From Qipengyuania flavescens (lineage in GTDB: Bacteria; Pseudomonadota; Alphaproteobacteria; Sphingomonadales; Sphingomonadaceae), in assembly GCF_029688735.1 (NCBI RefSeq), contig NZ_JARULD010000003.1, forward strand, positions 1 through 64,000: a stretch of DNA of 64,000 nucleotides, read 5' to 3'. The notes below the pieces were generated by a model. The model was given only the letters and a program-made list of their open reading frames with translations, searched no databases and had not been told where the DNA came from. Below are positions 3-17,622 of this stretch, one piece after another; position 1 is the first letter of the stretch, and the number at the start of each line of letters is the position of its first letter. The position numbers were made by a program, and so were the translations under genes.

Positions 3-2216
3 GGGGCCCCGGTGTTCACGCTCACGCTGAGCACGGCGGGCGCATGGCAGTTTACGCTGGAAGGCGTGCTCGACCACGACGTAGCCGGCACCGAGGACGA
101 CATCGCAATCGACTTCGGCGGCCTGGTAACAGGCACCGACGCCGATGGCGACAGCGTCACCGCAACCGGATCGCTGACCGTGACGGTCGACGACGACAGT
201 CCGGTGGCGGTCACGGGCGGTCCGGCGGGCGTGACGAATGGCCCCGCGCCGATCAGCGGGCCGTTCCTGCTCGATCTGGATGGTACGCTGGCCGACAATT
301 ATGGTGCGGATGGACCGGGAACCGTCCGGTTCCCCGACAGCATCGACGGGACCGACAGCGGCCTGACATCGAGCTTCCAGCCGATCATCTACAATCGCGT
401 CGACGACCACACGCTACAGGGCGTTGCCGACGGCACGGTGATTTTCGAAATCACGCTCGACCCGGCAACGGCAACCTATCGCGTCGACATGGACGGAACG
501 ATCGATTCGACCAGCGACATCACATTCAACCCGCTGACGAACAATTTCGTCGGAGGCAATTCGAGCTGGGCCGGCTTCGTCCCAAATAACGAGGATGAAA
601 CTACCGATATCGACAACGACAGTCTCGACCTGCTGCTGACCCCCCAGGTCAACGGCCTCGACGATGGTACGATCAATTCCAACGATTTCGCCGGCGGCGT
701 CGGCGGGGGTCCGGGCCAGGGTTCGGCAGTCGGAGCAACAGAGACCTTCAGAGTGGACTTCGTGGTGGACCTGACCGGGAATCCGGCCGACGGTCCGGGC
801 GATTACGATCGCCCTGCGAACCGCGACTTCGACTTCGACCATCACTACACGGTCAACGGCGCCTTCGCCCTGCTGAAGAGCACGAGCGGCTCCAGCGTCA
901 GGATTTCCGCATTCGATGACGACGACGGCCTGTCGCCGACCGATCCGCCGAATACGTTGCGCGCCGAGAACGATGTCGGTGACGGAGCGATGGATACCAT
1001 TACGGGCGTTTCCATAGTCTATCGCGGCGTCGGCTATCAGGGGCCGGGCGGCGAGAACCTAATCACGACCAGCGGCACCTATACCGTCAACAACCGCGAT
1101 TTCGTGGTGACGTTCAACGCCGATGGATCCGTGACGGTCGACAATGTCGAGGGCGATCCCGGGAATTCGCAGGTCGGCACGCAGATCGCCGTGTTCACCG
1201 ACGATGGCTTCAACAGCGTCGAATACGAGCACGTCGGTGGAGAACCGTTCCAGATCGGCGGGTTTGGCGGGTCTTCGATCACGACCGACCCGGTGACCTG
1301 GGACGTGCCGGTCGAGGTGGTGGATTTCGACGGGGACGTGTCCGGCACGGCGGATCTCACGATTACCGCGACCACACCTACGGTGAGCGGTGTGCCAAGC
1401 AGCGCGCAGACCTTGACCGAATTCGATGGTGCGGCCGCGCAATTGCTGGCTGCCAATATCGACGAGGCGATGCCCGGGGCGTCGCTGTTCGGAGCGTCGC
1501 TTTCTCTGGCAATGCCGCATCACGGCATGGCCCGTCAGGCAGGTGTGGGTGCCATGGCGGCTGCCGCAGCCGGTCTCGCAATGAACCACCAGTTGTTCGA
1601 GTACGATGCGCATATCGCATTGCCGACCGGCGATTCCCGGTTCGAAGCTATCGGCCTGCAGCCGGTCGCCTCACCGGTCGCGTTCGAGACCGCGCCGGCA
1701 ACGTTCGCACCTGCCGCAAGCTTGGGCACCGGCATGAACCTGGAATTCGCGCCAGTCGTTCCCGACGCCGCCACGCTGTCTGCGCAGGACCTTTCCGGCG
1801 CGCCATCTGTGGCAGTTGCGGGGAGCGCGCTGCGAGGCGCTGAACAAGCTTTCCATTACGACGACACGGGCATCGAGGTGGCCGGGACGGCTGCCAGCGC
1901 GATCCCTCTGGGCGATTACACGACGGGTATGGAAGCCTTGTTGGCAATGGCCGAGACATCTGCCGAAGCTCCGGCAAGTGGAGCCGCGAGCGACAGTCAT
2001 CCAGCCATCGCGGACATTGCGGCAGAGGCCGAGATCGATCGCCTGGTCGAGCATTTTGCCGAGGACATCACGACGCTCGAGAGCGCCGGGCCCGCAGGCT
2101 TCGACGATCTGCCGGGCCTGCTGGCGATGCAGGTCGAATTCGATGTCGGGGGGCTGGCACGCCAGGCCGTGCTGCCGGATGCCGAAATCCAGGTGAATAC
2201 GCCGACCGACGTCTGA
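3..2216 (+). CDS. C-terminal part of a giant T1SS-143/VCBS-type repeat adhesin (5' end outside window)
   Basis: The frame is open from the first bases, so this is the 3' end of a longer gene; the GTG at 12 is probably internal. About 737 residues are visible. The first 70 contain a T1SS-143-like repeat unit (GAWQFTLEGVLDH, then an Asp-rich loop and DDDSP), typical of very large acidic surface proteins exported by type I secretion. The middle (about residues 90-450) is rich in Asp, Gly, Asn and Thr and looks like further beta-rich repeat material. The last 280 residues are Ala-rich, with no GGxGxDxLx RTX nonapeptides that I can see. The OmpA, TolC, ABC and HlyD genes follow on the same strand and the LapG-like protease converges on them, so this is the likely substrate of the transporter. 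Inferred role: biofilm or surface adhesion. Family assignment is by motif, not by search. Confidence 0.8.
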   Translation, partial: GAPVFTLTLSTAGAWQFTLEGVLDHDVAGTEDDIAIDFGGLVTGTDADGDSVTATGSLTVTVDDDSPVAVTGGPAGVTNGPAPISGPFLLDLDGTLADNYGADGPGTVRFPDSIDGTDSGLTSSFQPIIYNRVDDHTLQGVADGTVIFEITLDPATATYRVDMDGTIDSTSDITFNPLTNNFVGGNSSWAGFVPNNEDETTDIDNDSLDLLLTPQVNGLDDGTINSNDFAGGVGGGPGQGSAVGATETFRVDFVVDLTGNPADGPGDYDRPANRDFDFDHHYTVNGAFALLKSTSGSSVRISAFDDDDGLSPTDPPNTLRAENDVGDGAMDTITGVSIVYRGVGYQGPGGENLITTSGTYTVNNRDFVVTFNADGSVTVDNVEGDPGNSQVGTQIAVFTDDGFNSVEYEHVGGEPFQIGGFGGSSITTDPVTWDVPVEVVDFDGDVSGTADLTITATTPTVSGVPSSAQTLTEFDGAAAQLLAANIDEAMPGASLFGASLSLAMPHHGMARQAGVGAMAAAAAGLAMNHQLFEYDAHIALPTGDSRFEAIGLQPVASPVAFETAPATFAPAASLGTGMNLEFAPVVPDAATLSAQDLSGAPSVAVAGSALRGAEQAFHYDDTGIEVAGTAASAIPLGDYTTGMEALLAMAETSAEAPASGAASDSHPAIADIAAEAEIDRLVEHFAEDITTLESAGPAGFDDLPGLLAMQVEFDVGGLARQAVLPDAEIQVNTPTDV

Positions 2217-2243: not shown

Positions 2244-2945
2244 ATGACAAGAACAAAAATCATGGTGGTGGGCACCGGTGCCATGCTGGCGCTGGCAGCG
2301 TCGCCCGTAGCAGCCCAGGACAATTGGCAGGACAGGGACATCTCGTCGCTGCGCGGCGAGACGCAGCAGCGCTACGATGCGGCTCTGGCGCTTACCGATG
2401 ACGCTGCAGTGGTCGAAGCGAATGACCCGCGGTTCATCTGGGCATCCGAAGCCAAAGTCCAGTGCGGTATCGCGCTCGGCTATCTCAAGTCGCGCACTCG
2501 GGATTCCGTATCGCTCGGCAAATGCCGCGATGCCTATGCCCGCATGACCCAGACGACGCGGGCGATGGCCCCGCCGCCGCCGCCTCCCCCTCCTGCCGAA
2601 GCCTGCAACACCGAACTGCCCGGCCTGATTTTCTTCGAATTCGATTCCGCCGTACCCGGGACGGAGGCAAGCCAGATTGCAGACTATGTCGCCCAGAATG
2701 CGGCGGCTTGCAGCTGGCGCACTTTCAACGTGGTCGGCCATGCCGATCGATCGGGCAGCAACGCCTACAATATGGACCTGTCCCAGCGGCGTGCGGATGC
2801 CGTCGCCAGCCTCCTGGGCTCGCGCGGGATCGCGACCGGATCGATCGACACTACGGCGCGCGGCGAGGAAAACCCGCGCGTGCCGACGGACGATGGCGTG
2901 CGCGAACTACAGAACCGGCGCGTCGAAATCCTGGTCAACCAATAG
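2244..2945 (+). CDS. OmpA-family outer membrane/peptidoglycan-binding protein
   Basis: 233 aa. Residues 1-24 form a signal peptide ending AAQ. Residues about 30-105 are an uncharacterised stretch with two Cys, followed by a Pro-rich linker (PPPPPPPP). The C-terminal 120 residues are an OmpA peptidoglycan-binding domain: FFEFDSAVPGTE, then VVGHADRSGSNAYNMDLSQR and the closing NRRVEILV. The domain should bind diaminopimelate in peptidoglycan and anchor the protein to the wall. It starts 27 bp after the adhesin stop behind a good AGGGGGAAACA ribosome site, and the tolC-like gene follows 13 bp after its stop, so it belongs to the secretion operon. It has no transmembrane beta-barrel of the classical OmpA type. 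OmpA-like proteins do occur in T1SS adhesin operons; a role in linking channel or adhesin to the wall is inferred. Confidence 0.9.
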   Translation: MTRTKIMVVGTGAMLALAASPVAAQDNWQDRDISSLRGETQQRYDAALALTDDAAVVEANDPRFIWASEAKVQCGIALGYLKSRTRDSVSLGKCRDAYARMTQTTRAMAPPPPPPPPAEACNTELPGLIFFEFDSAVPGTEASQIADYVAQNAAACSWRTFNVVGHADRSGSNAYNMDLSQRRADAVASLLGSRGIATGSIDTTARGEENPRVPTDDGVRELQNRRVEILVNQ

Positions 2946-2958
2946 GAGGAGGGAAATC

Positions 2959-4383
2959 ATGCGTAAGCCAACCCTTATAGCCATCGGCGCAGCTCTGCTC
3001 GGCGGTGTGGCGCCCGCAGCGATGGCCCAGACCGCCGCGGTGGAAGCAGTGCCTGGCGACACCCAGGCCGTCACGATGCAGGAAGCGATCTCCGTCGCGA
3101 TGCAGTCCAACCCGGAAATCCTGCAGGCGCAGTTCAACAAGGAGGCGATCGAGTTCGAACGCGAACAGGCGCAGGGTCTGTACTACCCGCGGGTCGATAT
3201 CGAGGCCTCTGCCGGAGTGCGACGACTGGAGAACAACACCCGCCGCACCCTCGGTATCGCTTCCGACGAGCTCTATCCCCTGGAAGCGGGGATTACCGGC
3301 GAGTGGACCGTGCTCGACTTCGGTCGGCGGCGCGGTGAATTGCTACGGCAGGCCGCACGGGTCGACGGTGCATCGCTGCGCGTTGTCGAGCGTTCGGAAT
3401 TCGTCGCACTGCAAGTCGCGCGGCAGTATCTCGACGTCTTGCTGCAGCAGCGCGTTGCCGCTGTATCGCAGGACAACGCCGCCTTTCATCGCAGCCTCGT
3501 GGCCGATCTCGGCCAGGGGGTGGAGCAGGGATCGATCAGCATCGCGGATCGCCAGCAGGCCGAAGAACGGCTGCAAGCGTCGCTCGTGCAGCAGGAAGAG
3601 GCGCTGCAGGGTTTGCAGAACGCCTTTATCACCCTGCGTCGCTTGACCGGCCTCGACGTGACAGGCGCAACCATGCCGCCCAATCTCGCATCGGCGATGC
3701 CGCCCGGCCTCGAAACGGCGGTCGGGCAGGCGCGCCTGCGCAACCCGCTGGTTCGCGAAGCGCAGGCGGACGTCGATGCCGCCAACGCGCTCGTGAAGTC
3801 GGCTGAGGGCGACTACTGGCCGACCGTCGGCCTCGAAGTCAGAGGGCGCGTGGGCGAGGACATCGACGGTTTTGCCGGCGAGACCAACGATATCCAGGGG
3901 CGCGTCGTGATGCGCTGGAATATTTTCGATGGCGGCATCAAATACGCCCGCGCGCAGGAGACGATCCGTCAGGCCAGCGTGGCGCGCTACGCCTTGCACG
4001 ATCGCCAGCGGCAGGCCGAGGAAGACGTTCGCCTCGCCTGGCAGGCGCTGGAAACGCAGGGCCGGGTGGTTCAGGCTCTCGATCGCCAGAGCCAGGTCAG
4101 TGACGATTTGCTCCTGTCATACAGAAGCCAGTTCAATGTCGGCAGGCGATCGTTGCTCGATGTGCTCGATGCACAGAACACGCGCTACAACACGCAGGTG
4201 CGTCTCGAAACGGCACGCTTCTCGCAATTGTTTGCGCAGTATCAGACCCTTGCTGCTACCAATAACTTCCTCGACGCGTTGCAGATCGCGCCGGGTGCCG
4301 GCGCCGGGGCGGCGGAGCGCGAACGCTTCGACTTCGGGCCTCCGGTTCCTGCGGAATTGCAGCGCCGGGTCGAACCGGGCTGA
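2959..4383 (+). CDS. TolC-family outer membrane channel of type I secretion (LapE-like)
   Basis: 474 aa from the ATG at 2959, chosen because it has a strong AGGAGGAGGG site and begins with a signal peptide (residues 1-24, ending AMAQ). An in-frame upstream extension runs through the ompA-like gene and is not credible. The body shows the two repeated TolC halves: N-terminal ITMQEAISVAMQSNPEIL-type helix starts (here VTMQEAISVAMQSNPEIL), then helical hairpins, the WTVLDFGRRR motif near residue 115 and its counterpart MRWNIFDGG near residue 320. These are the signatures of the T1SS outer membrane factor. It would form the outer membrane exit duct for the adhesin, partnering the ABC transporter and HlyD adaptor encoded downstream. 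The C-terminus ends in a Gly/Ala-rich tail. Confidence 0.93.
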   Translation: MRKPTLIAIGAALLGGVAPAAMAQTAAVEAVPGDTQAVTMQEAISVAMQSNPEILQAQFNKEAIEFEREQAQGLYYPRVDIEASAGVRRLENNTRRTLGIASDELYPLEAGITGEWTVLDFGRRRGELLRQAARVDGASLRVVERSEFVALQVARQYLDVLLQQRVAAVSQDNAAFHRSLVADLGQGVEQGSISIADRQQAEERLQASLVQQEEALQGLQNAFITLRRLTGLDVTGATMPPNLASAMPPGLETAVGQARLRNPLVREAQADVDAANALVKSAEGDYWPTVGLEVRGRVGEDIDGFAGETNDIQGRVVMRWNIFDGGIKYARAQETIRQASVARYALHDRQRQAEEDVRLAWQALETQGRVVQALDRQSQVSDDLLLSYRSQFNVGRRSLLDVLDAQNTRYNTQVRLETARFSQLFAQYQTLAATNNFLDALQIAPGAGAGAAERERFDFGPPVPAELQRRVEPG

Positions 4384-4402: not shown

Positions 4403-6553
4403 ATGATGTCCAAAGAGGTGGAAATTGAGGCAGGCGTCGAGATAGACTCGCTTAGCGAGTGTATCGCGGAAGCCGCGCGCCGCTTCGGCCCCTCTTTCGA
4501 CACCACGCTGCTCGTTCAAATCCCCAAGAACGAGCGCGGCTTTCTTCCCTGGCACCAGGCCGGGGCGGCGCTCGATCTTGCGCGCCTGAACTTCGATCCC
4601 GCCAATCCGCGAAGGCTCCCGGTCGGGGCCGCCAACTACCCCGCCATTGCGAAGTTCGCCGAAGGAGACGCCGCGCTCCTGCTCGATGCGCGCGATGGCG
4701 AGATCCTCGTCTGGCGACCCGGGACCGGGCTGGAACAGTGGGAGGCCCATGCGCGGCTTGCCAAGGGCTATGCCGGGACGCTCTATCGGGTTTTCGGCGA
4801 TCCGGACGAAATGCGCGAGAGCGAGGCGCCCTGGCATGCCAAGGCGCGCGGCCACTGGTTCTGGACCGAAATGCGCAAAGAGCGGCGGTCTTTCGGCCCG
4901 GTTTTCCTCGCATCGTTCCTGATCAACCTGCTAGCCATCGCGCTGCCAATCTTCACCATGAACGTCTATGATCGCGTGATTCCGAACCGCGCGGCCGAAA
5001 CGCTCTGGGTTCTGGCCGTCGGCGTGGTTCTGGCCTTCGGGCTCGAATTCTTCCTGCGCCGGGCCCGGACAGCAGTCGTCGACCAGACTGCTCGTCGCCT
5101 CGATCTCAAACTGTCGCAAAAGATCTTCGGCCGCTTGCTCGCTTCCCCGCTGCAAGAGCGAAAAGGGCACACCGGATCGCTCGCCGCGCGCGTCTCCGAA
5201 TTCGCAATCGTCAGGGACTTTTTCGCCTCGACCACGCTGGTCATGGTCATCGACGTGCTGTTCCTGTTCGTATTCGTCGGTGTGATCGCCATAATCGGCG
5301 GCTGGCTCGCGCTGGTCCCGCTGACGATCATCCTCGCGATGCTGGGGGTGGGTTACGTGCTTCAGCGCAAGGTGGTCGACGCGGCGCGGGACGCGCAGGC
5401 GGATTACGGTCTCCAGCAGACGATGCTGGTGGAATCGCTCGCCGGCATGGAGACGTTGAAAAGCGTTTCGGGCGAGGGGACGATGCTGTCGCGCTGGCAC
5501 AAGCTGGCAGACATCGGCAGCCATTCCCAGCAGCGCCTGCGCGATATCAATTCGCTGGCGGTCGGCCTGGCCCAGACCTTCCAGCAGGTTTCGACCGTAT
5601 CGCTGATCGTCGGCGGTTATTACCTGTTCGCCAATGGCGACATCACGATGGGCGCGATCATCGCCATCGTAATGCTTTCGTCCCGCTCGCTCGCGCCCGC
5701 AGGCCAGATTGCCTACCTGCTGACCCGTGGCCGCCAGGCGCAGGAAGCGCTCGACAGTATTGAAAAGCTTTTTGAAGGGGGGGACGAGCGCAAGCAGGGC
5801 AGTAGCCTGGCGCTGGGAGCTCTGGAAAAGCCGACGATCCGGCTGGAAGACCTCTCGTTCGCCTACGAAGGCACGGCACAGTCCGCTCTTTCGGGGATCG
5901 ATCTGACGATCACGCCCGGAGAGAAGGTCGCCATCGTGGGGCGGGTCGCTTCGGGCAAGTCGACGCTGGGCAGGGTGATCTGCGGGCTATACCCGCCAAG
6001 CGACGGTGCCCTGCTGCTGAATGGCATCGACGCCCGGCAGTTCCGGCCCGAATTGCTGAGGCAGGCCTTGCGCTTCGTCGGCCAGGACGCCGTGCTGTTC
6101 ACCGGATCGATCAAGGACAATCTGGCCATCTCCGATCACGGCATAGCCGACGAGCGGTTGATCGAGGCGATGCGCAAGACCGGCGCCGACATGTTCCTGT
6201 CTCGCGACGCGGGCGGCTTCGACCGCCCCGTCGGCGAGGATGGCCGCATGCTTTCGGGAGGCCAGCGCGCTTTCATGGCGCTGACCCGCGCCCTCGTCAC
6301 CGATGCCGAGGTCCTGTTCCTCGACGAACCCACCGGTGCGATGGACAGCCACACGGAAAAGCTACTGGTAGAGCGGCTCGGCAAGGCGCTGGCACCGGAA
6401 CAGACGCTGATCATCGCGACCCACCGGCCAGCCCTGTTTTCCATCTGCGACCGGCTCATCGTGCTAGATGCCGGCAGGATCGTTGCGGACGGTCCGGTAC
6501 AGGACGTCTTGAAGCAGGCAGGGTCCGAATTGGCGAAAGGGGACCCGGCGTGA
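4403..6553 (+). CDS. Type I secretion ABC transporter, permease-ATPase (LapB-like)
   Basis: 716 aa. Residues 1-150 look like a C39-peptidase-like domain without an evident catalytic Cys, as in LapB/HlyB-type transporters where it recognises rather than cleaves substrate. Residues about 170-450 are the ABC transmembrane domain (FLINLLAIALPIFTMNVYDR onward). The ATPase follows from about 480: Walker A GRVASGKST near residue 513, signature LSGGQ near 617, Walker B VLFLDEPTGAMD near 638, and an H-loop ATHRP. All catalytic motifs are intact. It starts 19 bp after the tolC-like stop and its stop overlaps the next gene's GTG by 4 bp. It should energise export of the adhesin across the inner membrane. 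A second ATG directly after the first makes the start uncertain by one codon. Confidence 0.95.
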   Translation: MMSKEVEIEAGVEIDSLSECIAEAARRFGPSFDTTLLVQIPKNERGFLPWHQAGAALDLARLNFDPANPRRLPVGAANYPAIAKFAEGDAALLLDARDGEILVWRPGTGLEQWEAHARLAKGYAGTLYRVFGDPDEMRESEAPWHAKARGHWFWTEMRKERRSFGPVFLASFLINLLAIALPIFTMNVYDRVIPNRAAETLWVLAVGVVLAFGLEFFLRRARTAVVDQTARRLDLKLSQKIFGRLLASPLQERKGHTGSLAARVSEFAIVRDFFASTTLVMVIDVLFLFVFVGVIAIIGGWLALVPLTIILAMLGVGYVLQRKVVDAARDAQADYGLQQTMLVESLAGMETLKSVSGEGTMLSRWHKLADIGSHSQQRLRDINSLAVGLAQTFQQVSTVSLIVGGYYLFANGDITMGAIIAIVMLSSRSLAPAGQIAYLLTRGRQAQEALDSIEKLFEGGDERKQGSSLALGALEKPTIRLEDLSFAYEGTAQSALSGIDLTITPGEKVAIVGRVASGKSTLGRVICGLYPPSDGALLLNGIDARQFRPELLRQALRFVGQDAVLFTGSIKDNLAISDHGIADERLIEAMRKTGADMFLSRDAGGFDRPVGEDGRMLSGGQRAFMALTRALVTDAEVLFLDEPTGAMDSHTEKLLVERLGKALAPEQTLIIATHRPALFSICDRLIVLDAGRIVADGPVQDVLKQAGSELAKGDPA

Positions 6554-7551
6554 CCTCCGTCCCGATCGCACGCATCGGCGGCATTCTGACCGTGGTCGCC
6601 GGATGCCTGCTGGCGGCAGCGCCTTCGATCGCACCCCTGCCGCAAAAAGCGCAGGCCATGGAGTTGGCGAAAGTGCCGGACGTCGGCGATATCGCCCAGA
6701 TGTCGACCGGCGAGGACCAGCCGCTCAGCGTCTCGGCCGAGAGCGCGGAGGCCCGCAACGCGGCGATCCCGCTGGCCAGATTGCGGCTCGAGCAACCCGG
6801 CCACATATCGCGCCGGGACATGTCTGCGGGCAGTCTCGCAACGGCCGAGAAATGCCTCGCGCAGGCGATCTATTACGAAGCGGCGCTGGAACCGGTTTCG
6901 GGGCAGCGTGCCGTGGCGCAGGTCGTTCTCAATCGCGTGGCGCACCCGGCCTATCCGAACAGTGTTTGCGGCGTGGTCTACGAAGGGGTGTCGCGCCCGG
7001 TCTGCCAGTTCAGCTTCACCTGCGACGGGTCGTTGCTGCGCCAACCGATGGCGAGCCACTGGGCATCGGCCAAACGGATCGCCCGGGAGATGCTCGATGG
7101 CGGCAGGGCTCCCGAAGTCGGCACCGCAACGCATTATCATGCCGATTACGTCGTGCCGCGCTGGGCGTTCACGCTCGGCAAGATCCGTCAGATCGGCCGG
7201 CACATATTCTACCGTTTCCCCGGCAGGGCGGGCTCGGCAATGGCATTCAACCGCGCCTGGTCGGGCCGCGAGGCGATACCCATGGTGAATTTCGCCCGGC
7301 TGCGAGACCGCTTCGCGAGCGAGGAAGAAGCGGGCGCAGAGATCGCGCATGATCTGGTCCCCGGCACCACCGTTGTGCCCGATGTAACCGATCGGCACGC
7401 GGCTTCGGATGTGGGCGGGCGGCTCGATACGACGACAGGCTGGACGCTGAGCATTCCCGATCCCGTTTCCGCCAGCGCGGGTTATCGCGCCACTCTTGCA
7501 GGGCAGGCAGGCAATTCCGTCGAGCCGATGGTTGCGGGAGGCGGAGAATGA
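6550..7551 (+). CDS. SleB-like cell wall hydrolase embedded in the T1SS operon
   Basis: 333 aa, GTG start overlapping the ABC gene stop (GTGA). Residues 1-36 contain a hydrophobic segment consistent with an uncleaved or cleaved signal. Residues about 97-225 are a Hydrolase_2 (SleB/CwlJ) domain: EKCLAQAIYYEAALEP, AVAQVVLNRVAHPAYP, CQFSFTCDG, and ATHYHADYVVPRW. In this family the first Glu of YYEA is the proposed catalytic residue. Homologues cut the glycan or cortex in spores, and in Gram-negatives act on periplasmic murein. The C-terminal 110 residues are not recognised. The stop overlaps the HlyD gene start (ATGA), so transporter, hydrolase and adaptor look translationally coupled. I infer a role in opening the peptidoglycan for assembly of the secretion duct or passage of the huge adhesin. 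Confidence 0.88.
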   Translation: MTSVPIARIGGILTVVAGCLLAAAPSIAPLPQKAQAMELAKVPDVGDIAQMSTGEDQPLSVSAESAEARNAAIPLARLRLEQPGHISRRDMSAGSLATAEKCLAQAIYYEAALEPVSGQRAVAQVVLNRVAHPAYPNSVCGVVYEGVSRPVCQFSFTCDGSLLRQPMASHWASAKRIAREMLDGGRAPEVGTATHYHADYVVPRWAFTLGKIRQIGRHIFYRFPGRAGSAMAFNRAWSGREAIPMVNFARLRDRFASEEEAGAEIAHDLVPGTTVVPDVTDRHAASDVGGRLDTTTGWTLSIPDPVSASAGYRATLAGQAGNSVEPMVAGGGE

Positions 7552-8816
7552 GCGGGCTGCGGCAACGCTTCGCGGGCCTAGATGCGCCGCAGCGCCTGAT
7601 CGCGATTGCCGCCGTCGGGATCCTGCTGCTCTTCTCATGGTCGGCCTTCGCCCAGGTCGAACAGATCACCCGCGGCACCGGCAAGGTTATCCCGTCGAGC
7701 AAGGCGCAGCTTGTCCAGCCGGCCGAACCGGCCGTCATCTCCGAGATTCTCGTACGTGGAGGGCAATCGGTCAGCAAAGGCGACCTCCTCGTCCGCCTCG
7801 ACGATACCCAGTCGGCTTCCGCACTGGGCGAGCTCGAAGAGGAAAACCGCAGGCTTGCTGCGCGGGCCCAGCGGCTGGAGAACGAAGCATCGGGCGGGGC
7901 GGCCGGGTGCGAGGCGGGCAGCCTGTGCGCAGAAGAACGACGGTTGCAACAGGTGCGCACTGCGACCGCCAGGGCGCGCGAAAGCGCACTCGGCTCGGCG
8001 ATCGAACAGCGCCGCCGCGACTTGCAGGAAGCGCAGGCGACGGCGTCGGCCCTCGAAAACAGCGTACGGCTCGCGCGCGAACAGGTGCAGATGCTGGAGC
8101 CGCTGGCGCAGAAGAATATCGTCCCGCAAACCGAATTGATCCAGGCGCAGCGGGATCTCGTCGACACCCAGGGCCGGCTGGCTGCGGCCCGGCAGGCCGT
8201 GGGCCGGTCCTCGGCCGCGATCCGGCAGGCGCAAGCGGATCTCAGCCAGGCACGGCTCGATTTTCGCCAGCAGGCGCTTGCCGAACGTAGCGAAGTCACC
8301 ACGCGCCTCGCGGTCAATGAGGAATCGATCCGCGGCGCCGCAGCGCGCCAGCAGCGCAACGAACTACGCGCACCAGCCGACGGGATCGTGAACGACGTCC
8401 AGATTACCACGGTGGGCGGGTTCGTGAATGCGGGCGAGAAGATCATGCAGGTCGTGCCGGTTGGCGACAAGCTGCTGGTCGAAGCGCGCATCGCTCCGAG
8501 CGACCGGGCCTTCATCAAGGTCGGCGATCGCGCAAACGTAAAGGTCACCGCCTATGATTTCTCGATCTACGGCGGGCTGCGCGGCAAGGTGCAGCAGGTT
8601 TCGGCCGATAGCATCTACGACGAGGCGGAACGCGAAGCTTACTATACCGTGGTGATCGAAACCGATCGCTCGTTCATCGTCAAGAATGGCCAGCGCCTGC
8701 CGATCGTGCCGGGCATGATCTGTGACGTGGAGATCATTACCGGACGCCACAGCATCCTGACCTACCTGTTCAAGCCGGTAAACAAGGCCCTGGACCGGGC
8801 GATGACCGAACGGTGA
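7548..8816 (+). CDS. HlyD-family membrane fusion protein of type I secretion (LapC-like)
   Basis: 422 aa. One N-terminal transmembrane segment (about residues 19-38, AVGILLLFSWSAF) after a short cytoplasmic head. A split lipoyl-like half follows (PAEPAVISEILVRGGQSVSKGDLLVRLD), then a long coiled coil (about 95-270, many Glu/Arg/Gln heptads) and the second half with the beta-barrel (ELRAPADGIVNDVQITTVGG). The C-terminus, GMICDVEIITGRHSILTYLF, is the classic T1SS adaptor end and strongly supports export rather than drug efflux. It completes the ABC-HlyD-TolC set. It begins in ATGA overlap with the hydrolase gene and ends 9 bp before the stop of the convergent LapG-like gene, with no obvious terminator between them. 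Confidence 0.95.
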   Translation: MSGLRQRFAGLDAPQRLIAIAAVGILLLFSWSAFAQVEQITRGTGKVIPSSKAQLVQPAEPAVISEILVRGGQSVSKGDLLVRLDDTQSASALGELEEENRRLAARAQRLENEASGGAAGCEAGSLCAEERRLQQVRTATARARESALGSAIEQRRRDLQEAQATASALENSVRLAREQVQMLEPLAQKNIVPQTELIQAQRDLVDTQGRLAAARQAVGRSSAAIRQAQADLSQARLDFRQQALAERSEVTTRLAVNEESIRGAAARQQRNELRAPADGIVNDVQITTVGGFVNAGEKIMQVVPVGDKLLVEARIAPSDRAFIKVGDRANVKVTAYDFSIYGGLRGKVQQVSADSIYDEAEREAYYTVVIETDRSFIVKNGQRLPIVPGMICDVEIITGRHSILTYLFKPVNKALDRAMTER

Positions 8817-8825
8817 TGCCGGCGA

Positions 8826-9794
8826 TCAATAGCCGTGCAGCCAGCTCTTGCGGCCGCTGAAGCTCAACACCGGCCGATAGTCGTTGGCGGAACTGGCGTC
8901 GAGAACGGGGTCGCTTGCATTGTCGAGCATGCGGAATCCGTCCGGTGTACGCACGATCAGCACTGCATGATCGGCCCGGCGCACGAGATCCCGCGTGATG
9001 GTCAGGAACATGTCCTCACGCGGTACACCGGCCGCAGCGAGCATGTGCATCTTCAAAAGAGCGTAATCTTCGCAATCGCCCTGGCCCATCCGCAGGGTCT
9101 TGCGCGGTCCGGCCCAATAGTCGGCCTGCCCGAACAGGTCGCTATCTTCCCTGTAGGTGATCCGCTGGTTGACCCAGCGGTTGACGATAGCGAGTTTGTC
9201 TTCGAGTCCCTCGGACTGTCCGAGCAACTGGCGCGCCGAGCGACCCACGGAACCGCGTTCGCGGTTCACCCGGTCCCACGAGGCGTCGAAATTGGTCGTT
9301 GCGATCGGCACCCGGCGGCTGGCGAGGAAGTCGTTCGGTCCCGGCAAGCTTGTGCCGGCAATGGGTGAAGAAAGCTGCGCCAGTCTGGCGAGCGCCGTCC
9401 CTGGGCTAGAAGCGCATTCTGCCATGGGGGGAAGGGCCAGGGCTGCCGTGGTGGACATCGTTTCGACCGGCGGTTCGGCCGTTCCCGCCCCCGGCATCAA
9501 AGGGCCCATCGTTTCGAATCCATCCTGCCGCGCGCGGATCGTTTCAAGCGCGCTGGATGCACCGCCGAGAATCGCGGATGCCTTCGAGACCCCTGAACCG
9601 CTCGGCCGAGGCGTTGCGAGCGACGCGGATGCTGCAACCGGACACACGCCCGTCGACAAGGCCGAGCTCAGGGCGGGAAGGATCACAGGTGCGTAAACCT
9701 GTGCCGCCGCCGGAGCGGCAGTCATCCAAGCCGAGAGCCCGAGGCCGAGCGTGGCAATGACCTTGCGGTTCGGAAAGGTGAGGCGCTTTTCCAT
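8826..9794 (-). CDS. LapG-like periplasmic transglutaminase-type cysteine protease (BTLCP family)
   Basis: 322 aa with an N-terminal signal peptide (residues 1-32, ending AAAQ). The conserved domain lies in the last 140 residues: VNQRITYREDSDLF, GQGDCEDYALLK, RRADHAVLIVRTPDG and RMLDN. The catalytic triad reads as Cys241, His276 and Asp291. The family (bacterial transglutaminase-like cysteine proteinase, DUF920) includes LapG, which cleaves the N-terminus of LapA/Bap adhesins in the periplasm and frees them from the cell. Location next to the T1SS adhesin operon, on the opposite strand, supports that job. About 150 residues between signal and domain are unlike the short known LapG proteins and are Pro/Ser/Ala-rich. 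No LapD-like inhibitor is next to it. Confidence 0.92.
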   Translation of the reverse strand: MEKRLTFPNRKVIATLGLGLSAWMTAAPAAAQVYAPVILPALSSALSTGVCPVAASASLATPRPSGSGVSKASAILGGASSALETIRARQDGFETMGPLMPGAGTAEPPVETMSTTAALALPPMAECASSPGTALARLAQLSSPIAGTSLPGPNDFLASRRVPIATTNFDASWDRVNRERGSVGRSARQLLGQSEGLEDKLAIVNRWVNQRITYREDSDLFGQADYWAGPRKTLRMGQGDCEDYALLKMHMLAAAGVPREDMFLTITRDLVRRADHAVLIVRTPDGFRMLDNASDPVLDASSANDYRPVLSFSGRKSWLHGY

Positions 9795-13205: not shown

Positions 13206-13437
13206 CCCTCTCGACCGACCGCTTCGAGCGAGTCCGATTCATGCGCGGGGATCGGAACCAGGATGGAAGCGGCGTTTCCATATCGCGACGTTCTAGAAGA
13301 GCTGCAGCCGCCGCCCGACCGGGCGTGCATGTCCTGCGGCCTTTTCGCGTCCCGTATGGCTCTCACGCGCATGGGACATGAACTTCCGGCTCGCACTCCC
13401 GGGCCGATGCAGCACTGATACGAGGCACAGCACCTTT

Positions 13438-16400
13438 ATGGCTACCAAGGCGAAGGCACCCCGCAACACATCGTCGGGCACCGCGAAACGGCGTATCCGC
13501 AAGATCTTCGGCGACATCCACGAAGTCGTCGACATGCCGAACCTGATCGAGGTTCAGCGCGAGAGCTACGAACAGTTCCTGCGCTCCGACAAGGAAGCGG
13601 GCCATGTGTCGGGGCTGGAAAAGACCCTGCGTTCGGTCTTCCCGCTGCGCGACTTCGCCGGCACCGCCGAACTCGACTTCGTCCATTACGAACTCGAACC
13701 GCCGAAGTACGACATCGTCGAATGCCGCCAGCGCGGGATCACCTATGCCGCGCCGATGAAGGTCACGCTGCGCCTGATCGTGTTCGAAGTCGACCAGGAA
13801 ACCGAAACCCGCTCGGTCCTCGATATCAAGGAGCAGGACGTCTACATGGGCGACATGCCCCTGATGACGGGCAACGGCACCTTCATCGTCAACGGTACCG
13901 AGCGCGTGATCGTGTCGCAGATGCACCGTTCGCCGGGCGTCCTGTTCGACCACGATCGTGGCAAGACGCACAGCTCGGGCAAGCTGCTGTTCGCGGCCCG
14001 CATCATTCCCTATCGCGGCAGCTGGCTCGATTTCGAATTCGACGCCAAGGACATCGTGAACGTGCGTATCGACCGCAAGCGCAAGCTGCCGGTCACCGCG
14101 CTGCTCTATGCGCTGGGTCTCGATAGCGAAGACATCCTCCACCACTTCTACGACATCGTCAGCTGGAAGCGTGCCAAGGAAGGGTGGGAAATCCCCTTCG
14201 TCGCCGAAAACTGGCGCGGGCAGAAGCCGGCCTTCCCGCTGGTCGATGCCAAGACGGGCGAGGAAGTCTTCCCCGCCGGCCAGAAGATCAGCCCGCGTGC
14301 CGCCAACAAGGCCGCCAAGGACGGTCTCGAAACGCTGCTGCTGCCGACCGAGGAAATCTTCGGCCGTTATGCCGCGCGCGACATGATCGACGAGAAGACC
14401 GGCCGCATCTATATCGAGGCTGGTGACGAAGTCGCCGCCGAAAACCTCGAAGCGCTGGACGCTGCGGGTGTCGATGCGGTCGACCTGCTCGACATCGACC
14501 ACGTCACCACCGGCCCGTGGATCCGCAACACGCTGAAGGTCGACAAGGCCGAGAATCGCGACGAGGGCCTCGAAGCGATCTACAAGGTCATGCGCCCCGG
14601 CGAACCGCCGACCAAGGAAACCGCCGAAGCGCTGTTCGAAGGCCTGTTCTTCGATGGCGAGCGTTACGACCTGTCGGCCGTCGGCCGCGTCAAGCTCAAC
14701 ATGCGCCTCGACCTCGATGCCGAAGACACCGTCACCACGCTGCGCAAGGAAGACATCCTCGCGGTCGTCAAGGAACTGGTCGACCTCAAGGACGGCAAGG
14801 GCGACGTCGACGACATCGACAACCTCGGCAACCGCCGCGTCCGCTCGGTCGGCGAGCTGCTGGAAAACCAGTACCGCGTCGGCCTGCTGCGCATGGAACG
14901 CGCGGTGAAGGAGCGCATGAGCTCGGTCGACGTCAGCACCGTCATGCCGAACGACCTCATCAACGCCAAGCCCGCCGTGGCCGCGGTGCGCGAGTTCTTC
15001 GGCTCGAGCCAGCTCTCGCAGTTCATGGACCAGACCAACCCGCTCTCGGAAGTCACCCACAAGCGCCGCGTTTCGGCGCTCGGCCCGGGCGGCCTTACCC
15101 GCGAGCGTGCCGGCTTCGAAGTGCGCGACGTTCATCCGACGCACTATGGCCGCATCTGCCCGATCGAAACGCCGGAAGGCCCGAACATCGGCCTGATCAA
15201 CTCGCTCTCCACCTTCGCCCGTGTCAACAAGTACGGCTTCATCGAGACGCCGTATCGCAAGGTCGTGGACGGCAAGGTGACCGACGAGGTGATCTACCTC
15301 TCGGCCATGGAAGAGCAGAAGCACACGGTCGCCCAGGCTTCGGCCGAGCTGACCGACGACGGCAGCTTCGTGGAAGAGCTGGTTTCGGCTCGCCACGACG
15401 GCGACAACCTGATGGCGCCGAACGACCAGATCACGCTGATGGACGTCAGCCCCAAGCAGCTCGTTTCGGTTGCCGCATCGCTCATTCCGTTCCTGGAAAA
15501 CGATGACGCCAACCGGGCGCTCATGGGCTCGAACATGCAGCGCCAGGCCGTGCCGCTCGTGAAGGCGGAGGCGCCTTGGGTCGGCACCGGCATGGAAGAG
15601 ACCGTGGCCCGCGACAGCGGCGCGGCCATCACCGCGACCCGCGGCGGGATCGTCGACCAAGTCGACGCGACCCGTATCGTGATCCGCGCGATCGGCGATG
15701 TCGAACCCGGCCAGTCGGGCGTGGACATCTACACGCTGCAGAAATTCCAGCGTTCGAACCAGGACACCTGCATCAACCAGCGTCCGCTGGTGAAGGTGGG
15801 CGAAACGGTTTCGGCCGGCGACGTCATTGCCGACGGCCCGTCGACCGATCTCGGCGAACTGGCTCTGGGCCGCAACAGCCTCGTCGCCTTCATGCCCTGG
15901 AACGGCTACAACTACGAGGACAGTATCCTCATCTCCGAGCGTATCGTGAAGGACGACGTCTTCACCTCGATCCACATCGAGGAGTTCGAAGTCATGGCCC
16001 GCGACACCAAGCTCGGGCCCGAGGACATCACCCGCGACATTCCGAACGTCGGCGAAGAAGCGCTACGCAACCTCGACGAGGCGGGCATCGTCTACATCGG
16101 CGCCGAAGTGCATCCGGGCGATATTCTTTGCGGCAAGATCACGCCCAAGGGCGAAAGCCCGATGACGCCGGAAGAAAAGCTCCTGCGCGCCATCTTCGGC
16201 GAAAAGGCCAGCGACGTGCGCGACACCTCGCTCCGCCTGCCGCCGGGCGTGGCCGGGACCGTCGTCGAAGTGCGTGTCTTCAACCGTCACGGTATCGAGA
16301 TCGACGACCGTACGCGCGCCATCCAGAACGAGGAAATCGAACGTCTCCGCAAGGATGCGAACGACGAACGCGCCATCCTCAACCGCGCGACCTACAACCG

Positions 16401-17622
16401 CCTGCGCGACATGCTGCTCGGCCAGACCGCTTCGGCGGCGCCGAAGGGCGTGAAGAAGGGTACCGAGGTCACCGAGGAAGTTCTCGAGGGCGTCGACAAG
16501 CACGAGTGGTTCAAGTTCGCCGTGGCCGACGATGGTCGCCAGCAGCAGCTCGAAGCGGTCAAGTCGCAATACGACGAAGCCGTCAAGACGATCGAAGAGA
16601 AGTTCGAGGACCGCAAGGAAAAGCTCGAACGCGGCGACGAACTCGCCCCGGGCGTACTCAAGATGGTCAAGGTCTTCGTCGCGGTGAAGCGCAAGCTGCA
16701 GCCGGGCGACAAGATGGCCGGCCGCCACGGTAACAAGGGTGTGATCTCGCGCATCCTGCCGGTCGAGGACATGCCGTTCCTGGAGGACGGGACCCCGGTC
16801 GACATCGTGCTCAACCCGCTGGGCGTGCCATCGCGCATGAACGTCGGCCAGATCTTCGAAACGCATCTCGGCATGGCAGCCCGCAACCTGGGCATGCAGA
16901 TCGGCGAGCAGCTCGAGGAGTGGAAGAAGGCCAATCCGAACGCTTCGGAAGATTACGCCATGGCGAAGCCGCCCGAGGCCGTGATCGACCGGCTGAAAGA
17001 CGTCTATGGCGAGCAATATATTGACGCCATCGACAGCCGCTCGACCGAGGAAATCGTCGAACTCGCCACCAACCTTCGCGCAGGTGTCCCGATGGGTACG
17101 CCGGTGTTCGACGGTGCGCGCGAAGGCGACGTGACGGTCGAGCTGGAAAAGGCCGGCCTGCATAGCTCCGGCCAGTCGGTGCTCTACGACGGGCGCACGG
17201 GCGATGCCTTCGATCGCAAGGTCACCGTGGGCATCATATACATGCTCAAGCTGCACCACCTCGTCGACGACAAGATCCACGCGCGTTCGATCGGCCCCTA
17301 CAGCCTCGTCACCCAGCAGCCGCTGGGCGGTAAGGCGCAGTTCGGCGGCCAGCGCTTCGGGGAAATGGAGGTCTGGGCGCTCCAGGCCTACGGTGCGGCT
17401 TACACGCTGCAGGAAATCCTCACCGTGAAGTCGGACGACGTGATCGGGCGCACCAAGGTCTACGAAGCCATCGTCAAGGGCGACGACACCTTCGAGGCCG
17501 GCATTCCGGAAAGCTTCAACGTGCTCGTGAAGGAAATGCGCAGCCTGGGTCTCAACGTCGAACTCAAGTCGCATGGCGACGAGGACGAGGACGACGACCC
17601 CTTCGCGATCGCGGCGGAATAG
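13438..17622 (+). CDS. rpoB: DNA-directed RNA polymerase subunit beta
   Basis: 1394 aa from the ATG at 13438 ([10 protein letters not shown]); an in-frame ATG 60 bp upstream adds residues unlike the family. Diagnostic blocks include [18 protein letters not shown], the rifampicin pocket ([33 protein letters not shown]) near residue 520, and the [17 protein letters not shown] block near residue 1100. The C-terminal region has [20 protein letters not shown]. Positions matching E. coli Asp516, His526 and Ser531 carry the wild-type residues, so rifampicin sensitivity is expected. Together with rpoC it forms the catalytic core of RNA polymerase. rpoC follows after 63 bp. Confidence 0.99.

Follow-up and report, generated by a model that had tools for sequence, protein, structure and literature searches.

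Introduction

Giant-adhesin secretion systems of the Lap/Bpf kind, described in Pseudomonas (LapA, LapG, and LapD) and Shewanella (BpfA-AggABC-SO4321-BpfG-BpfD), have in common a giant adhesin, a TolC-ABC-HlyD exporter, and a LapG-like protease. The usual picture of type I secretion is that of a duct in three parts, which crosses the wall without help. In Shewanella, the bpf cluster further includes bpfG, bpfD, and an OmpA-like gene; the last lies between the exporter and protease genes and has a role in biofilm formation (PMC4523816). Here, we describe a type I secretion system (T1SS) locus in a stretch of 64,000 nucleotides from Qipengyuania flavescens (assembly GCF_029688735.1, contig NZ_JARULD010000003.1, positions 1 to 64,000; hereafter the window), which resembles the Shewanella cluster in carrying an OmpA-like gene and differs from the Lap and Bpf systems in that a gene for a SleB-type (PF07486) peptidoglycan hydrolase stands between the ABC and HlyD genes; the available excerpts of the Lap and Bpf cluster descriptions name no such gene. 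A preliminary description of the locus had assumed that canonical T1SS operons are limited to ABC, HlyD, and sometimes TolC, a premise that does not hold for adhesin clusters: an OmpA-like gene, bpfG, and bpfD accompany these genes in Shewanella, and OmpA-like and LapG-like genes do so in the present locus.

The view that the hydrolase is a part dedicated to this T1SS is well supported by the comparative evidence given below. On balance, we also lean towards the view that this enzyme is a periplasmic, inner-membrane-anchored accessory subunit of the Lap-type T1SS, addressed to it by its C-terminal tail, which opens the wall locally for the duct or the adhesin.

Results

The hydrolase gene (6550..7551, forward strand; GTG start, 333 amino acids) lies, as the preliminary description had reported, between those of the ABC transporter (4403..6553, forward) and the HlyD-family periplasmic adaptor (7548..8816, forward) with 4-bp overlaps on both sides; the coordinates of the open reading frames (ORFs) agree, the ABC stop and the hydrolase start sharing GTGA, and the hydrolase stop and the HlyD ATG start sharing ATGA. 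This order is not peculiar to one genome, a possibility which that description had named as damaging to its claim. We searched 199 genomes of the family Sphingomonadaceae with HlyD and took matches at E <= 1e-90 as orthologous, a clear gap separating them from the next matches (1e-79, about 38% identity). Orthologous HlyD occurred in 36 of the 199 genomes, and in 35 of these ABC, hydrolase, and HlyD followed one another in this order on one strand, counting one genome where HlyD is cut by the contig end (G143) and one where only the end of ABC remains (G122); the exception is genome G156. A survey of 147 genomes of the order Sphingomonadales found orthologous HlyD in 20, all belonging to the same family and all with the hydrolase (20/20). 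Since 11 of these were already in the family count and nine were new, the survey that had been suggested for the ABC-hydrolase-HlyD order gives 44 of 45 genomes with orthologous HlyD, so that the arrangement is more than chance.

In the window's own genus, T1SS and hydrolase occurred together in six genomes (G000, G078, G622, G628, G629, and G631), and neither the T1SS nor an orthologous hydrolase was found in three others (G146, G198, and G626). Across the 199 family genomes, hydrolase places at E <= 1e-60 numbered 36, namely the 35 linked to a T1SS and a second copy in G188, with none in a genome lacking the T1SS; a SleB-type match of any kind (E <= 0.001) was present in 197 of the 199. In a further scan of named sequences, which kept the best 80 loci and includes some of the genomes already surveyed, linked loci bore the names Qipengyuania, Tsuneonella, Altererythrobacter, Erythrobacter, Croceicoccus, Novosphingobium, Sphingopyxis, Sphingobium, Sphingomonas, Rhizorhapis, and Sphingomicrobium, and one was a metagenome-assembled genome labelled Caulobacteraceae.

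The overlaps are conserved together with the order. A 4-bp overlap was kept at 38 of 43 ABC-hydrolase joints and 33 of 43 hydrolase-HlyD joints, and was rare upstream (OmpA-TolC, 4/31; TolC-ABC, 3/39). Compared with the TolC-ABC joint, Fisher's test gave p values of 4e-14 (ABC-hydrolase) and 9e-11 (hydrolase-HlyD), which are indicative only, the related rows not being independent. Starts were set by rule, each being the start codon nearest downstream of the preceding stop; single values may therefore be off, and a slightly different rule gave 38 and 32 overlaps; the counts omit locus L120 (a lone copy), L134 (no hydrolase), and L192 (truncated ABC). Both order and overlap are still seen in loci as distant as about 40% identity, and the overlaps suggest translational coupling of ABC, hydrolase, and HlyD.

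A second line of evidence comes from the C-terminal tail of the hydrolase, where the motif D.GG..D....W....P (residues 287-303; 7408..7458, forward), a predicted docking motif, lies outside and behind the catalytic domain. Its residues D287, G289, G290, D293, W298, and P303 are invariant in an alignment of 40 proteins (the window's own, 38 from operons, and the free-standing copy of G188, at 37-65% identity to the window's), and in the AlphaFold model the stretch spanning it, residues 286-309, has a pLDDT below 50. The pattern was present in all 45 clade proteins, of which 44 are linked and one is free-standing, vs. none of 11 paralogues, figures that serve as description because the pattern had been fitted to those 45 proteins. 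A partly independent test is offered by the best 80 named loci, some of whose records are from the same genomes, with the motif in 42 of 45 HlyD-adjacent copies vs. none of 35 non-adjacent ones. The three adjacent misses comprise one changed residue (L219), a degenerate form (L232), and a run of N just behind the catalytic domain (L239); among the non-adjacent loci, L251 has an upstream ABC-type ATPase match (34%) and no HlyD. A docking signal would be expected to look like this, a conserved motif within a tail that is probably disordered and nearly confined to copies linked to the machine, and docking of the hydrolase on the T1SS is accordingly a plausible function for the tail.

The protein itself matches PF07486 (Hydrolase_2) with E 1.9e-26 and 93.1 bits against a gathering cut-off of 27, and the solved SleB catalytic domains with E 3.4e-13. 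In a Foldseek search, the sole Protein Data Bank match of its AlphaFold model (mean pLDDT 67.5) at E <= 0.001 was 4f55, SleB of Bacillus cereus (E 7.2e-5, TMt 0.71, root-mean-square deviation 4.3). It is not SleB proper, scoring 66.4 bits against the cut-off of 236.5 of the TIGR02869 equivalog, with model positions 82-200 of 201 matched. The PF07486 match that delimits the catalytic domain covers residues 114-221 (6889..7212, forward). Just ahead of it, Glu110 of YYEA (6877..6879, forward) aligns with the Glu of VYGES in SleB and is the predicted catalytic glutamate, the Glu of VYGES being taken, on the alignment, as the catalytic one of SleB. The catalytic Glu of SleB is essential for its lytic transglycosylase activity (PMC12331253). 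All 40 aligned proteins share Glu110, Glu114, and four cysteines, along with many residues of the catalytic domain, and cleavage of peptidoglycan is the activity predicted from the family. At the N-terminus, a hydrophobic helix (residues 6-23; 6565..6618, forward), modelled with modest confidence, could be a signal peptide or a membrane anchor; a hydrophobic N-terminal stretch (Kyte-Doolittle above 1.6 over 19 residues) was present in 39 of 44 clade proteins, consistent with putative anchoring in the inner membrane. The gene is under constraint in terms of substitution rates, dN being below dS in 8/8 close pairs (e.g., 0.011/0.144 and 0.0013/0.129). Descent from a phage or another virus was considered and set aside: viral contigs (the best 80 loci) and phage records gave relatives of the catalytic domain, and 0 of 341 phage records covered 80% of the protein.

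Secretion loci of other kinds served as controls. For a second type of T1SS, 38 HlyD places were listed and eight were read, one of them in the window's own genome; an ABC gene lay upstream in 8/8, and no hydrolase match was found at any of the eight. In a class-wide sample of 337 genomes, HlyD matches up to E 1e-80 occurred in eight outside the family, with ABC directly upstream on the same strand in seven of the eight and a LapG-like match in the short flank in five. One genome of another family from the order survey (G554) had an HlyD match of 38%, ABC, two LapG-like matches, and no hydrolase. A class-wide search of 385 genomes with the alignment of hydrolase orthologues gave E <= 1e-48 in 21 genomes outside the family, and all of these matches ended before the tail motif, reaching at most model position 289 of 342. 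Around the two best (G260 and G473), no T1SS match was found within the 20 kb read. Each of these two genomes (loci L305 and L304, respectively) has a pair of SleB-type hydrolase genes that point in opposite directions and are separated by about 5-6 kb. As at most five candidates per genome were scored in the class surveys, the negative results from outside the family carry less certainty than the positive ones from within; with this proviso, the hydrolase-bearing T1SS seems to be a trait of this family.

The locus as a whole is a Lap-type giant-adhesin T1SS, with an ABC transporter of the LssB type, an HlyD, and a TolC in one cluster. The window starts inside the adhesin gene, whose N-terminal part is cut off by the contig edge; the remaining C-terminal part of the giant T1SS adhesin (12..2216, forward; an open frame at the contig edge) scored 79.8 bits for TIGR03660 (T1SS-143 repeat; cut-off 66.05) and had no Pfam match in the profile scan. 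It is followed on the same strand by an OmpA-family protein with a peptidoglycan-binding type domain (2244..2945; PF00691, E 1.3e-14) and a TolC-family outer-membrane channel (2956..4383; PF02321, E 6.1e-44, far above its cut-off), which scored 219.2 bits for TIGR01844, below the cut-off of 225.15. The ABC transporter, of the LssB/LapB type, carries PF00664 (ABC_membrane) and PF00005 (ABC_tran) and reached 692.8 bits for TIGR03375, 0.3 bits under the cut-off of 693.1, and the adaptor matched HlyD_3 and TIGR01843 (347.6 bits; cut-off 208.65). On the reverse strand lies a LapG-like periplasmic cysteine protease (BTLCP; 8826..9794; PF06035, E 5.6e-24), which, with 88.5 bits, does not reach the cut-off of 320 of the LapG equivalog NF045674.

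Relatives show the same composition. Among 39 hydrolase-bearing loci read with wide flanks, 30 had an OmpA-like match (tblastn) and 38 a LapG-like match, which in one (L191) was not adjacent. TIGR03660 exceeded its cut-off in 5/5 adhesins scanned (the window's fragment and 4/4 complete ORFs of relatives), DUF5801 was present in three of the four complete ones, with that of G156 as the exception, and NF045619 (BapA/Bap/LapF adhesin) exceeded its cut-off in one of the five (G156), being below it or absent in the others. Closed adhesin ORFs measured 1,641 codons in G156 and then 1,921 to 5,105 codons. In eight genomes, the N-terminal part of the adhesin had P[AE]AG followed by SSG[GN]NF; TAAG is the LapG cut site of LapA, and its likeness to P[AE]AG would presumably fit the LapG-like gene. 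Retention of the adhesin at the cell surface is suggested by analogy with the Lap family. The LapD receptor domain for cyclic di-GMP, PF16448, was found in 0 of 34 genomes, a count that carries no information because the control genomes gave no match either.

Several side observations concern single loci. Upstream of OmpA in G078 (L115), the adhesin reads as two open frames of 1,545 and 1,074 codons, possibly the result of a frameshift or a sequencing error. In G122 (L192, 5303-12464), the T1SS operon is without its upstream part and most of ABC; the upstream frames there resemble, by eye, an integrase and a transposase, and the hydrolase and HlyD frames are open. In the window, downstream of the LapG-like gene, ORFs resembling ribosomal proteins L7/L12 and L10 (10001-10993, reverse) and the RNA polymerase beta subunit (13378-17622, forward) were named by eye.

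Discussion

The hydrolase can be regarded as a dedicated component of this T1SS because its position is conserved, it is apparently coupled on both sides, and its tail motif tracks linkage to the T1SS, and because it is absent from the second-type T1SS loci read and three members of the genus are without both the T1SS and the orthologue. The preliminary description had proposed a dedicated enzyme that opens the wall for the secretion duct or clears space for the adhesin; conserved order, overlaps, and tail motif bear out its dedication, and the opening of the wall keeps the standing of a proposal. In the mechanism that we infer, ABC, hydrolase, and HlyD would be made together through translational coupling, and the enzyme would be held at the inner membrane on the periplasmic side. 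Its flexible C-terminal tail would probably reach HlyD or TolC and recruit it to the T1SS, where it could cut glycan strands locally and let the HlyD-TolC duct and the lodged giant adhesin pass the wall, in analogy with VirB1, EtgA, FlgJ, and TagX.

A number of observations weigh against this reading. The operon of G156 (L134, 4079-14333) holds adhesin, TolC, ABC, and HlyD genes, along with an OmpA-like match that is partial and a LapG-like one truncated where the contig ends, and has no hydrolase, ABC and HlyD directly overlapping by 4 bp; duct genes can therefore occur without the enzyme, which is not universally required, and G156 warns that export alone may not need it. The hydrolase was likewise present at 0/9 of the Lap-like loci read outside the family (the eight of the class sample and G554), which implies that the machine type as such does not need the enzyme. 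Moreover, G188 has a second motif-bearing copy (L120, 6419-7462) with no T1SS genes found within 14 kb, and in G010 a copy close to the end of its contig (L156) does not carry the motif and yet groups with the linked copies. The window's genome encodes three further PF07486 proteins, which might act as substitutes, and the hydrolase evolves faster than HlyD, with a higher dN in 8/8 pairs. The catalytic-domain tree, built from 71 chosen rows, is weakly supported and requires several changes of linkage: linked copies cluster (5 changes vs. about 20 in shuffles) and do not form one clean clade. Finally, the motif pattern was widened after inspection of the 45 clade proteins, the first pattern having fitted 38 of them.

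As for G156, its HlyD is placed next to a clade made up of five rows, all from hydrolase-bearing loci (support 87), near an unresolved base of the tree, and the hydrolase was likely lost in this lineage, ancestral absence being the alternative. Its adhesin is the shortest closed ORF and lacks DUF5801, a domain present in 3/3 adhesins scanned from hydrolase-bearing operons. We make no claim that adhesin length or DUF5801 is tied to the presence of the hydrolase, since this is one case and hydrolase-bearing operons also have adhesins of 1,921 and 1,973 codons.

The main rival explanation, which we hold to be rather unlikely, is that the hydrolase serves retention and display of the adhesin and not its export. 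It would remodel the peptidoglycan that surrounds the OmpA-like protein and the stem of the adhesin held in TolC, and in this way allow the adhesin to remain anchored or to be let go. The operon does include an OmpA-family protein and a LapG-like protease, the duct genes of G156 occur without the enzyme, and in Salmonella deletion of siiA/siiB spares SiiE secretion and lowers invasion (PMC12607715); the overlaps, however, join the hydrolase to ABC and HlyD, which are parts of the duct, whereas the OmpA-TolC and TolC-ABC joints rarely overlap. A purely structural role, in which the protein would fix the T1SS in position by binding peptidoglycan and would not act by cutting it, strikes us as improbable: cleavage is a predicted activity and OmpA-like genes occur in such clusters, but the invariance of Glu110, Glu114, and many catalytic-domain residues is as expected if catalysis has been kept.

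We give equally little credence to the idea that a general wall enzyme was inserted once and kept for its general role, with no functional tie to secretion. SleB-type paralogues are common, both in the window's genome and across the family, and one motif-bearing copy, in G188, stands free. Against it, the close hydrolase matches are otherwise all T1SS-linked and every one of them lies in a genome that has the T1SS, order and overlap hold to about 40% identity, and the tail motif follows linkage.

Two Sphingomonas plasmids provide a further observation on the tails. Paralogous SleB-type hydrolases occur there in exopolysaccharide clusters (L307, 5755-6849, NZ_CP101724.1; L308, 5791-6834, NZ_CP009572.1) together with a tyrosine autokinase, a member of the O-antigen ligase family, and a glycosyltransferase, and in L307 only, a flippase. 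These two hydrolases are without the T1SS motif, and their C-terminal ends are alike by eye, which suggests, from two related cases only, machine-specific tails on a shared cutting module. Whether sphingomonads thus use one anchored SleB-type module with exchangeable "address" tails (D.GG..D....W for the Lap-type T1SS and another for exopolysaccharide) is a speculative generalization, possible and on present evidence doubtful.

Compared with known systems, the hydrolase shares its catalytic domain and Glu with the spore cortex-lytic enzymes SleB and CwlJ, and differs from them in missing the TIGR02869 cut-off, in sitting in a Gram-negative T1SS, and in having a C-terminal tail of its own. SiiA and SiiB of the Salmonella SiiE T1SS are alike in being auxiliary, peptidoglycan-related inner-membrane proteins of a giant-adhesin T1SS, whereas SiiA, which attaches to peptidoglycan and together with SiiB makes up a proton channel, is given no wall-cutting role in the excerpts of that source (PMC12607715). 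In the open-licence literature searched, we found no dedicated peptidoglycan enzyme of a T1SS, an absence that is unproven, as subscription papers lay mostly outside this scope; in a T1SS review (Chem. Rev. 2021), two of the four uses of "peptidoglycan hydrolase" were examined, and both refer to FtsEX-PcsB.

Machines that span the wall often have a peptidoglycan enzyme of their own, encoded in linkage with them and in many cases bound to them; such enzymes have been described for types III, IV, and VI secretion and for flagella (PMC5061870; PMC6403190). VirB1 (type IV secretion), EtgA (type III secretion), FlgJ (flagella), and TagX (type VI secretion) are experimentally supported and serve other machines, whereas the T1SS hydrolase described here is a predicted enzyme; they are also not known to be members of PF07486, unlike the present enzyme. 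A conserved, overlapping, and motif-tagged enzyme would open to direct test the way in which a three-part duct, and a giant adhesin lodged in it, cross the peptidoglycan, and would offer an approach to adhesion in a group that is common in the environment, with linked loci in Erythrobacter, Qipengyuania, Novosphingobium, Sphingopyxis, Sphingobium, and Sphingomonas. If the proposed role is true, the T1SS would gain its first dedicated peptidoglycan-lytic subunit and take its place beside the machines of VirB1, EtgA, FlgJ, and TagX, each of which likewise has a dedicated, gene-linked wall enzyme at a wall-spanning apparatus.

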